From an uncultured Paracoccaceae bacterium (lineage in GTDB: Bacteria; Pseudomonadota; Alphaproteobacteria; Rhodobacterales; Rhodobacteraceae), in assembly GCA_947488175.1 (NCBI GenBank), contig CANKYO010000003.1, forward strand, positions 124,001 to 188,000: a stretch of DNA of 64,000 bases. The letters are read 5' to 3'. Shown one piece after another: positions 3,481 to 41,349 of the stretch. The notes beneath the pieces are model-generated. The model was given only the letters and a program-made list of their open reading frames with translations, had not been told where the DNA came from and did not search any database. Position 1 is the first letter of the stretch. Each line of letters opens with the position of its first letter. Made by a program: the position numbers and the translations under genes.

Positions 3481-3554
3481 TATCGCTCAACTCGGCCCCG
3501 CCATGCCGGTGTATGCCAGCCCACGTCAATCAGGTGCAGATCCAGGGGGCGGCG

Positions 3555-4640
3555 ATGATTTCACGACGGGGATTGATCATGACCACAGTGTCGGCAGCAG
3601 CCATAGGTGGCATCGGTTACGGGCTCTGGCCGCGGCTCGACGGGTATCAGGAATTGTTGGAACAGCAGCGACGGCTGTTGTCGGCTGACCCAGATCTGAC
3701 TGAACTTGTGCGGCTCTCGAGCCTCGCCGCGAATGGCCACAACACGCAACCATGGGTGTTTCAACTGCGCGAGAACGGCCTGAGCATCCACCCCGACCTC
3801 ACGCGCCGGACGGCAGTAGTCGATCCTGATGATCACCACCTTTATGTCAGCGTTGGCTGTGCCGCTGAAAATCTGGTCATCGCGGCGGCTGCTACAGGTC
3901 GGTCGGCAGATGTCGGTATTGCAGGCGGTGCTGAAACGTCCATCGACGTCGCCTTTGAAAGCGGCCCAGTAAACGAGGGACCCCTTTATCAGGCCATCCC
4001 CCAGCGCCAATCAACACGTTCGGCGTATGACGGGCAGCCGATATCAGCCAGCGATATCGGCTTGTTGGAAGCAGCAGCGCAGGAAGAGGGTGTTTCTGTT
4101 CAGTTCTTCACAGAGGCGTCCGACCGCGATGCAATCCTTGAAATGGTAATCGAAGGCAATAGCGCGCAGATCGATGATCCGGCCTTCGTGGCAGAGCTGC
4201 GTGACTGGATCAGGTTCAGCTCCGGGCGCGCGGTAGCAACCGGCGACGGGCTTTTCAGCGCGTGTTCCGGCAACCCGGTGACGCCGGAATGGTTGGGCGG
4301 CTTTTTATTCAACGCGGTCTTCACGAAGGATGCCGAAAATGACAAGTATCGCGATCATATTCGGTCCTCTGCAGGGGTCGCGGTCTTTATTGGTGACCGC
4401 GCTGACCCGGACCATTGGATCAAGGTTGGCCGCAGCTTCGAGCGCTTTGCCCTGCAGGCTACGGCGCTGGGCATCCGTAGCGCCCATATCAACCAACCCA
4501 TCGAAGTACCGTCACTGCGTCAGGAACTCGCGGGGTGGCTGGGGATGCCGGATGTGCGACCGGACCTTGTCGTCAGATTTGGTCGTGCGTCGGCTTTGCC
4601 AATGTCACTGCGACGCCCGGTCGAGGCTGTAATTGTCTGA
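3555..4640 (+). CDS. Acg-type nitroreductase-like protein with Tat signal
   Basis: A 361-residue protein resembling the Acg family of nitroreductase-fold FMN proteins, with SSLAANGHNTQPWVF at about 56-69 and a second fold-typical stretch AGVAVFIGDRADPDHWIKVG. The N terminus MISRRGLIMTTVSAAAIGG is a twin-arginine signal followed by a short hydrophobic segment, so it is probably exported or membrane-anchored in the periplasm. The start has an AGGGGG ribosome binding site. In mycobacteria Acg is thought to sequester flavin rather than reduce nitro compounds; whether this one is an enzyme cannot be told. It follows the TetR gene on the same strand. Confidence 0.75.
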   Translation: MISRRGLIMTTVSAAAIGGIGYGLWPRLDGYQELLEQQRRLLSADPDLTELVRLSSLAANGHNTQPWVFQLRENGLSIHPDLTRRTAVVDPDDHHLYVSVGCAAENLVIAAAATGRSADVGIAGGAETSIDVAFESGPVNEGPLYQAIPQRQSTRSAYDGQPISASDIGLLEAAAQEEGVSVQFFTEASDRDAILEMVIEGNSAQIDDPAFVAELRDWIRFSSGRAVATGDGLFSACSGNPVTPEWLGGFLFNAVFTKDAENDKYRDHIRSSAGVAVFIGDRADPDHWIKVGRSFERFALQATALGIRSAHINQPIEVPSLRQELAGWLGMPDVRPDLVVRFGRASALPMSLRRPVEAVIV

Positions 4641-4658
4641 GCCTGCAGGCTGCTAATT

Positions 4659-4861
4659 CCTTAACACCACATTAGGATTCCGACCGCGCGCTGCCTTAAC
4701 CCACCAAAATGCCACAAAAGGGTCCGACGCAAGTCCGACGCTTGGCCGACGCGATGCCGACCGGCAAGTTTAGCCAAAACCCCAGTGTTAACTGATGATT
4801 CGCAAAAACGCCGATCCCGGGGTGTTGCGTCACCCCGCCCGACCCACCGAACGTTGCGCGG
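4659..4861. repeat. dispersed repeat, copy A, with four phased CCGAC blocks
   Basis: This stretch aligns without gaps (constant offset 36084, one base more at the very end) with 40743-40946. The best-conserved core is 4720-4802, where about 70 of 83 bases are identical. CCGAC starts at 4724, 4735, 4746 and 4757, an exact 11-base period. Other shared parts are CCTTAAC at the left end, a TTAAC...GATTC block, and CCACCGAACGTTGCGCGG at the right end. The right end overlaps the last codons of the minus-strand Nudix gene. I know no named element of this type. Confidence 0.75.
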
Positions 4862-5297
4862 TCCCGTTCAACCTTTCCAGAAATGCGGCGTCGCCCCGGT
4901 TGAACAAAAGCGGTACTGCTGCCGCCAGATCCATCCAGATCGCCGTATGTTCAGGCTCGGTCGGGTCGCTCAGCCGACGTACGGGAAAGGCCTGATAGAT
5001 ATGGCAGATTTTCTCGGCCCATTTGTCATATTCGGGCATATAGGCAAACCGCCGAAACGCCCCCAATCTCCGCGGCCGGGCGATGGTCCAGCCGGTTTCC
5101 TCGAACACCTCCCGATGCAACGCACGGACCATGCTTTCGCCCGGATCAACCCCGCCGCCGGGCAGTTGCAGCTCGTTATGGATACCGCCCTGCCAGGTCA
5201 GCAACACCTGACCCTCGCGCAACAAGACCCCATAAGCCCCGTGCCTTACCTGATACCGCTGCCCGTTTTTTGGCACCTCGCCATACCGCCTGATCAT
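4830..5297 (-). CDS. Nudix hydrolase
   Basis: A 155-residue pyrophosphohydrolase with a complete Nudix box at residues 48-70 (G-x5-E-x7-REVFEETGW), which binds the metal and hydrolyses a nucleoside diphosphate linked to some group X. The substrate is unknown. The last ten residues (TAQRSVGRAG) are encoded inside the dispersed repeat, so the natural C terminus may once have ended nearer FLERLNG. It diverges from hslO across a short intergenic region. The paralogue mutT near 41 kb also has a repeat copy directly at its 3' end. Confidence 0.9.
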   Translation of the reverse strand: MIRRYGEVPKNGQRYQVRHGAYGVLLREGQVLLTWQGGIHNELQLPGGGVDPGESMVRALHREVFEETGWTIARPRRLGAFRRFAYMPEYDKWAEKICHIYQAFPVRRLSDPTEPEHTAIWMDLAAAVPLLFNRGDAAFLERLNGTAQRSVGRAG

Positions 5298-40188: not shown

Positions 40189-40698
40189 ATGAGATTTTCC
40201 GCCGTCCTGCCCGTCGCGCTGTCATTGGCTGCAATGCCAGCTTTGGCTCCCGCGCAAGACGCTGACTATTCAGGGCTAGGGCAGACCTACGAGCTTGCCC
40301 AGAACCGCGACTATACCGACGTCGTACGCGGGTTAGAGGCGGTGGATTATCAGATCGAAGGGGTCACCACGACCACGCTCGGGCGTACCCGTATCACGGC
40401 CAATAATGGGGAACACCGGCGCGAGGTAATTGTCAGCCAGACCACGGGCGGGGTGCTGTCGGACATGATCACGGACACCCAACCCGACGCGGACGCCATC
40501 GCGCTGCAATCAGCACTGGATGCCGCCAGTGATCCGCGCCCGGATAACGGTGAGTCCGGGATCGAATTCAGTGGCTCCCTGACATTCGGCTTCAATAACA
40601 AATCCGGCCGTTCTGCCAGCGGCAGTGTCACGGCGCGACGGGAAAACATAGGCGGGTCCGGCATCACCGGATCAATCACCTATGGCAGAAGCAACTAA
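40189..40698 (+). CDS. small secreted protein of unknown function
   Basis: A 169-residue protein with a signal peptide (MRFSAVLPVALSLAAMPALA, cleavage near PAQ-D). The middle, YQIEGVTTTTLGRTRITANN, alternates hydrophobic and polar residues like beta strands. The end is Gly/Ser-rich with SGSLTFGFNNKSGRSASGSV. No Cys and no family I recognise. It stands alone after the infB terminator, with AGAG near its start, and is followed by the second copy of the dispersed repeat. Confidence 0.7.
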   Translation: MRFSAVLPVALSLAAMPALAPAQDADYSGLGQTYELAQNRDYTDVVRGLEAVDYQIEGVTTTTLGRTRITANNGEHRREVIVSQTTGGVLSDMITDTQPDADAIALQSALDAASDPRPDNGESGIEFSGSLTFGFNNKSGRSASGSVTARRENIGGSGITGSITYGRSN

Positions 40699-40742
40699 GC
40701 AGATTTGAGTTTGTGCGCCTGCAGCTCAACTCGACCGCAAAA

Positions 40743-40946
40743 CCTTAACGCCGCATTTACGTTTACACCGCACGCGGCGTTAATCCCGCAGAACCGCTGA
40801 TAGGGGTCCGACGCAAGTCCGACGTTTTGCCGACGCGATGCCGACCGCCCAAATTGGCGAAAACACCAGTATTAACGAATGATTCGTGGATTCCGGCTAA
40901 ATCACCGCGCGGTACCCCCTACGCAACACCACCGAACGTTGCGCGG
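40743..40946. repeat. dispersed repeat, copy B, with four phased CCGAC blocks
   Basis: The partner of 4659-4861. CCGAC starts at 40808, 40819, 40830 and 40841, again an exact 11-base period, and the flanking CCTTAAC, TTAACGAATGATTCG and CCACCGAACGTTGCGCGG blocks are in the same order and spacing. It ends four bases before the stop codon of mutT on the minus strand, whereas copy A runs 32 bases into its Nudix gene. Confidence 0.75.
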
Positions 40947-40950
40947 CGGC

Positions 40951-41349
40951 CTATAACCAGTCGCGCAAAATCGGGATCAGCGGGATGTCCGCCGCAGGCA
41001 TCGGATAATCCCGCAGCTCATTTGCGCGCACCCATTTCAGCGCCTGTCCTTCCCGCGATTGCGGCGCGCCTTCCCACTTGCGGCAGGCGAAAAGCGGCAT
41101 CAGCAGATGAAAATCATCATATGAATGGCTCGCAAATGTCAGCGGGGCCAAACAGGATGCCCAGGTGTCGATCCCCAGTTCTTCATGCAATTCGCGGATC
41201 AAAGCCGCCTCCGGCGTCTCTCCCGCTTCGACCTTGCCGCCAGGAAACTCCCACAGGCCCGCCATGGATTTGCCTTTCGGGCGTTGGCCCAGCAGCACAC
41301 GACCATCCACGTCAATCAGCGCGACCGCCGAAACAAGAACTGTCTTCAC
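40951..41349 (-). CDS. mutT: 8-oxo-dGTP-type pyrophosphohydrolase MutT
   Basis: A 132-residue Nudix enzyme with a textbook box at residues 38-60 (GKVEAGETPEAALIRELHEELGI) and the MutT start LVSAVALIDVDGRVLLGQRP. It should clear oxidised guanine nucleotides such as 8-oxo-dGTP from the pool and so prevent mutations. Its start overlaps the argJ stop by four bases, making it the last gene of a parvulin-argJ-mutT operon. The dispersed repeat lies directly after its stop. Confidence 0.92.
   Translation of the reverse strand: MKTVLVSAVALIDVDGRVLLGQRPKGKSMAGLWEFPGGKVEAGETPEAALIRELHEELGIDTWASCLAPLTFASHSYDDFHLLMPLFACRKWEGAPQSREGQALKWVRANELRDYPMPAADIPLIPILRDWL

Follow-up and report, generated by a model that had tools for sequence, protein, structure and literature searches.

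The sequence repeated in the analysed DNA is one of about a hundred elements of roughly 200 bp that are spread fairly evenly through the genome of this marine bacterium, and each carries a four-fold array of short boxes which relatives spell differently at some of the same places, suggesting that an unidentified, fast-evolving DNA-binding protein uses them genome-wide. The window (the whole stretch analysed, 64,000 nucleotides of contig CANKYO010000003.1 of assembly GCA_947488175.1, from an uncultured Paracoccaceae bacterium) contains two copies, which align without gaps except for one base near the right end. The sequence-only reading had placed these copies at 4659-4861 and 40743-40946, and had inferred a many-copy repeat family, matching no family that could be named, with no transposase and no target-site repeats. 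The observation is confirmed, with boundaries shifted by a few bases, and the inference is supported, although the family goes well beyond what could be seen in two copies, i.e., it is a fixed-length, multi-site element with an exchangeable iteron core.

Architecture and copy number of the element

The motif GGTCCGACGCAAGTCCGACG occurs exactly twice in the window, against 0.01 expected. A BLAST search of the window's own genome (4.74 Mb, hereafter G000) using copy 1 as the query found about 40 copies at E<1e-11, and a subsequent search with a 128-position profile found 103 places at E<=0.01, 99 of them at E<1e-5, of which about 66 carry the full frame and 33 carry little more than the core. 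At least 62 copies were found in each of four sister genomes. Alignment of 24 full-length genomic copies showed sharp ends (left AAAc-CTTAAC, right CACCGAACGTTGC) and a nearly constant length of 202±3 bp, with 23 of 24 copies measuring 201-205 bp and one measuring 207 bp. The two copies in the window, and the parts recognised in each, are as follows.

4656..4857 (+): copy 1, full length (202 bp), between a nitroreductase-like gene (3513-4640, +) and a NUDIX gene (4830-5297, -), which point towards each other (Pfam); profile hit G000:C3:128682-128806
4661..4675 (+): left-end box TTAA-N7-TTAG (family consensus TTAA-N7-TTHA, a CtrA-like 11-bp direct repeat, not the perfect CtrA site)
4683..4699 (+): ACCGCGCGC...TTAA, the conserved left frame (CCGNRCG N5 TTAA)
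4723..4762 (+): iteron core, TCCGACG-CAAG-TCCGACG-CTTG-GCCGACG-CGAT-GCCGACC, four 7-bp boxes at 11-bp spacing
4788..4802 (+): TTAAC followed at 8 bp by TGATTCG (GANTC at 4797-4801), a GcrA/CcrM-type motif
4819..4836 (-): inverted repeat GGGGTG-TTGCGT-CACCCC in the right arm, facing the 3' end of the NUDIX gene, with a weak terminator-like signal
4845..4857 (+): right end CACCGAACGTTGC, of which the final CGTTGC is invariant in the 24 aligned copies
40740..40942 (+): copy 2, full length (203 bp), between ORF 40189-40698 (+) and a NUDIX gene (40951-41349, -), the right end lying 8 bp from the NUDIX stop codon; profile hit G000:C3:164766-164890
40745..40759 (+): left-end TTAA-N7-TTTA box
40767..40783 (+): ACCGCACGC...TTAA, the left frame
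40807..40846 (+): iteron core, TCCGACG-CAAG-TCCGACG-TTTT-GCCGACG-CGAT-GCCGACC, carrying the commonest linker set in this genome (16 of 32 cores)
40872..40886 (+): TTAAC plus TGATTCG (GANTC at 40881-40885)
40903..40943 (+): alternative right module, CACCGCGCGGTA followed by CGCAAC-ACCACCGAAC-GTTGCG (an inverted repeat over the right end); the same alternative module occurs in the aligned loci L011, L027, L028 and L029

Both copies in the window lie next to the 3' end of a NUDIX gene, whereas other genomic copies do not, so this is probably coincidence.

Read from left to right on the + strand, the family consists of AAAC; the TTAA-N7-TTHA box; CCGNRCG N5 TTAA; about 22 bp; four KCCGACG boxes, each followed by a 4-bp linker; A/T tracts; TTAAC; YGAKTCK, nearly always TGATTCG; a variable right module (GGGTGTTGCGC, or CACCGYRCGGTG plus CGCAAC...GTTGCG); and CACCGAACGTTGC. 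The TTAA-N7-TTHA box is present in 35 of 57 full-frame copies, against 0.06 in shuffled sequences; however, the perfect CtrA site, TTAA-N7-TTAA, is present in only 3. YGAKTCK is present in 55 of the 57 copies (shuffled mean 2.7), on the + strand in 54 against 2, and lies 8 bp from the start of TTAAC in 42 copies and 16 bp in 8. This sequence is exactly the extended GANTC motif associated with GcrA-activated genes in Caulobacter (PMC7987155). In addition, GANTC is strongly depleted in the window (58 observed against 139 expected from a Markov model), as would be expected where CcrM acts. Of 62 variable columns of the alignment, 15 keep the G/C or A/T class while the base varies, against 0.5 expected, suggesting that part of the frame is constrained at the level of DNA shape.

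Placement in the genome

Nearly all copies are intergenic, and they lie in both orientations. Of 54 full-frame copies with flanks, 33 have the right-hand gene ending at the element, and in 16 of these the stop codon is within -1 to +2 bp of the right end, although the gene calls come from a simple codon-usage finder and individual distances may be off. In 21 of 35 copies whose right gene ends at the element, the right arm read from that gene looks like an intrinsic terminator, against 4 of 21 copies where the right gene starts away from it and about 6 of 56 in shuffled sequences. The clearest case is acs, with GGCCGCGCAACACCCTTGTGCGGCC-T6. In two sister genomes, an extra stretch of about 110 bp with its own inverted repeat (AATCCCCTAACGC...GCGTAAGGGGATA) sits between the acs stop codon and the element.

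The copies are spaced more evenly than under random placement, with a gap CV of 0.68 against 0.93 expected (P=4e-4) and 2 pairs closer than 5 kb against 9.5 expected (P=0.002). However, the null is uniform and does not model gene structure or operons. In the closed genome G021, 38 sites of another spelling (see below) also avoid closeness, with 3 gaps under 30 kb against 9.4 expected (P=0.003). An oriented, KOPS-like polar motif was also considered and rejected, as the two orientations are mixed and the strand runs in G021 are not unusual (17 against 19.9).

Respelling of the core between lineages

A pattern for the left frame alone found the frame in other members of the genus, but with a different core, in which four boxes GYRTACG again stand at 11-bp spacing. 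A subsequent search with a pattern for that core found 47, 41, 27, 21, 18, 16 and 15 copies in seven genomes, few or none in the clade of the window's genome, which uses KCCGACG, and none with the reversed control pattern. GYRTACG is the spelling in most of the genus. Several sites, read by eye from the sequences, look orthologous between the two spellings, i.e., mraY|murD, the Lrp/AsnC gene, a lipoprotein gene, cobB, and arfB|queT. At the promoter of one gene for a 142-aa protein, genome G066 has clean GYRTACG boxes, G043 and G058 have degenerate forms, and G017 has a hybrid CATACG-TCCGACG-TCCGACG-GCCGACC, all inside the same frame. A different, REP-like inverted repeat (GTAGGGTGGGTG...CACCCACCCTAC) lies beside the element site upstream of this gene in two genomes.

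A core-free frame pattern was then searched across 293 genomes of the order (113 genera) and hit only this clade and one place in each of two other genera, both of which contain a four-fold 11-bp array with yet other spellings, CCATACG and ACCGACG. Because the core was not in that pattern, this is independent support that the four-fold array is intrinsic to the frame, although these two spellings rest on one copy each. CCGACG arrays also occur outside the genus, as shown by copies in Candidatus Rhodobacter lobularis and by the metagenome-assembled genome Co_bin.241, which has many core-only arrays (GCCGACGTNNT x4) without the frame, often next to gene ends.

The linkers are homogeneous within the window's genome (CAAGT 22/32, TTTTG 19/32, CGATG 25/32) and different in its sisters. 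At acs, where the element is shared throughout the clade, G000 and genome G065 differ in 8 of 9 linker bases but in only 12 of 60 bases just left of the core, which points to unit turnover or gene conversion of the core. The boxes themselves cannot be scored for constraint in this comparison, since most sites were found with a pattern that fixes them, which weakens the direct evidence for unit constraint between orthologues; one locus (L197) shows that departures occur.

Possible role and alternative readings

With moderate confidence, we propose that the element is a native, DNA-level docking site for several proteins. The four boxes stand exactly 11 bp (one helical turn) apart, so all face the same side of the DNA, and the simplest reading is that a sequence-specific protein, not yet identified, binds them side by side as an oligomer. 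We further infer that its specificity has changed several times in the family Rhodobacteraceae and that the boxes of the whole set followed, helped by unit turnover or gene conversion, and that the methylatable TGATTCG and the TTAAC box make the site responsive to replication passage and the cell cycle through CcrM/GcrA and possibly CtrA. The most likely role of the set is chromosome organisation (nucleoid anchoring, domain or segregation sites) rather than classical promoter control, because the sites lie at gene ends as well as starts, in both orientations and at intervals. Where a gene ends at the element, the right arm appears to have been adapted as the transcription terminator of that gene. 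However, these are inferences from sequence, and a genome-wide coordinated change of spelling could also come from gene conversion of a selfish unit without any binding protein. Furthermore, copy number varies from about zero to 100 within one genus, which is odd for an essential organiser. One family of possible binders, the OmpR/PhoB response regulators, was tested. Direct repeats of a 7-bp box plus a 4-bp spacer suit this family; however, seven orthologue groups shared by CCGACG and GYRTACG users have identical recognition helices, so this family is not supported.

The geometry resembles that of the sites of CdbA, a ribbon-helix-helix nucleoid-associated protein of Myxococcus xanthus (PMC7156744), which has hundreds of GC-rich, frequently intergenic chromosomal sites with direct repeats separated by 4 bp. 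However, CdbA sites are two-box and are not inside a conserved 200-bp frame, and no lineage-specific respelling is reported in what we consulted of that work. The known extended GANTC sites of GcrA/CcrM are promoter sites, whereas here the motif is part of a dispersed composite element, often between convergent genes. Iteron centromeres, such as the 11-bp repeats of parC of plasmid R1 and the stb repeats of R388, probably share direct repeats at about 11-bp spacing on one face of the DNA, but appear to be one or two loci next to their partition genes, and no partition gene was seen near the element. The sites of MatP (matS), Noc and SlmA likewise seem to be chromosome-wide sites of one organising protein, but probably as single short palindromes with regional bias. 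No paper in the literature searched holds these core sequences, and keyword searches for such repeats found no description.

Among the alternatives, the one that survives best, although we consider it doubtful, is a non-autonomous mobile or selfish element (MITE- or REP-like) that amplified in this clade, with the core homogenised by gene conversion or repeated insertion and the evenness and site sharing as by-products. In its favour, copy number explodes in five related genomes and is low elsewhere, linkers are homogenised within a lineage (CAAGT and CGATG here, against TTTTG and CTTTG in relatives), and the acs comparison amounts to block replacement. In addition, the cobB site is occupied only in G000 within its clade, although the flanks are rearranged, cobB being followed in the sisters by a meaB-like GTPase gene with the element at the breakpoint, and this is not a clean empty site. 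However, the left and right ends do not match as inverted repeats (at most 6 of 16 identities), and there is no sign of target-site duplication, the longest word shared by a copy's own two flanks averaging 3.21 bases against 3.47 for mismatched flanks. No transposase was seen nearby, without a genome-wide family search for RAYT, although a protein that looks like a REP-associated (IS200-like) transposase (MSKYRRPKRPGASVFFTVNLADR...) lies beside one element site in two genomes. The REP/BIME elements of enterobacteria (PMC2817692) are probably similar in being dispersed, intergenic, present in many copies at gene ends, and mosaic, but the present element is longer, of fixed length and in orderly spacing, its boxes are direct repeats, and no conserved hairpin was found in its consensus structure. 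Orthologous positions keep the element between species, copies avoid one another, TGATTCG is conserved at a fixed distance, and the same four-fold architecture recurs with unrelated spellings in other genera, which amplification alone does not predict. Plasmid or phage origin was also rejected, as no meaningful match was found in plasmid and phage records, and pattern hits in IMG/VR lack the frame and look like unrelated tandem repeats. In one such viral/plasmid contig (L341, 14026-14062), four TGTACG boxes at 11-bp spacing lie directly upstream of a ParA-family gene, possibly an unrelated iteron centromere of similar geometry.

It is also unlikely, in our view, that the element is the operator of an ordinary but large regulon. 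Some copies do lie upstream of gene starts (divergent or tandem), e.g., at the lipoprotein promoter, four direct repeats at one-turn spacing would suit a regulator, and GcrA- and CtrA-like motifs are promoter motifs. However, the right-hand neighbours are mostly genes ending at the frame, convergent sites are common, no functional theme among the neighbours was apparent, and OmpR/PhoB-family regulators do not co-vary with spelling. A gyrase- or HU-type wrapping site, recognised mainly by shape and analogous to BIME-2 gyrase sites, is very unlikely. A/T tracts recur every 9-10 bp in the arms (peak period 9.7 in the right arm, 107-160, empirical p<5e-4), the S or W class is conserved where the base is not, and copies lie at gene 3' ends; however, the peak period of the whole element is 9.0 rather than 10.5, and the core is strictly conserved in sequence within a lineage and respelled between lineages, which a general shape-reading protein would not require. 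A family of small RNA or terminator elements acting as RNA is equally improbable, despite the terminator-like right arm of some copies, as there is no Rfam match in the window at gathering thresholds, RNAalifold finds no supported structure over 24 copies (covariation term -0.24), and the core lacks pairing potential and lies beyond the terminator.

A bolder reading, possible but rather unlikely, is that of a chromosome-wide organising system in which an unidentified protein and its roughly 100 four-box arrays repeatedly change recognition sequence together while the sites stay in place, a bacterial counterpart of fast-evolving site–protein pairs such as PRDM9 hotspots or centromere proteins, and wired to cell-cycle DNA methylation. 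If the docking-site model is right, these bacteria carry an overlooked genome-wide set of binding sites that leads directly to an unknown DNA-binding protein. The set offers natural experiments in how a protein can change its recognition sequence when about 100 target sites must change with it, as hybrid arrays and orthologous sites in different spellings are already visible. The attached TGATTCG/GANTC site suggests that the sites report replication passage, which would link chromosome architecture to the alphaproteobacterial cell cycle.
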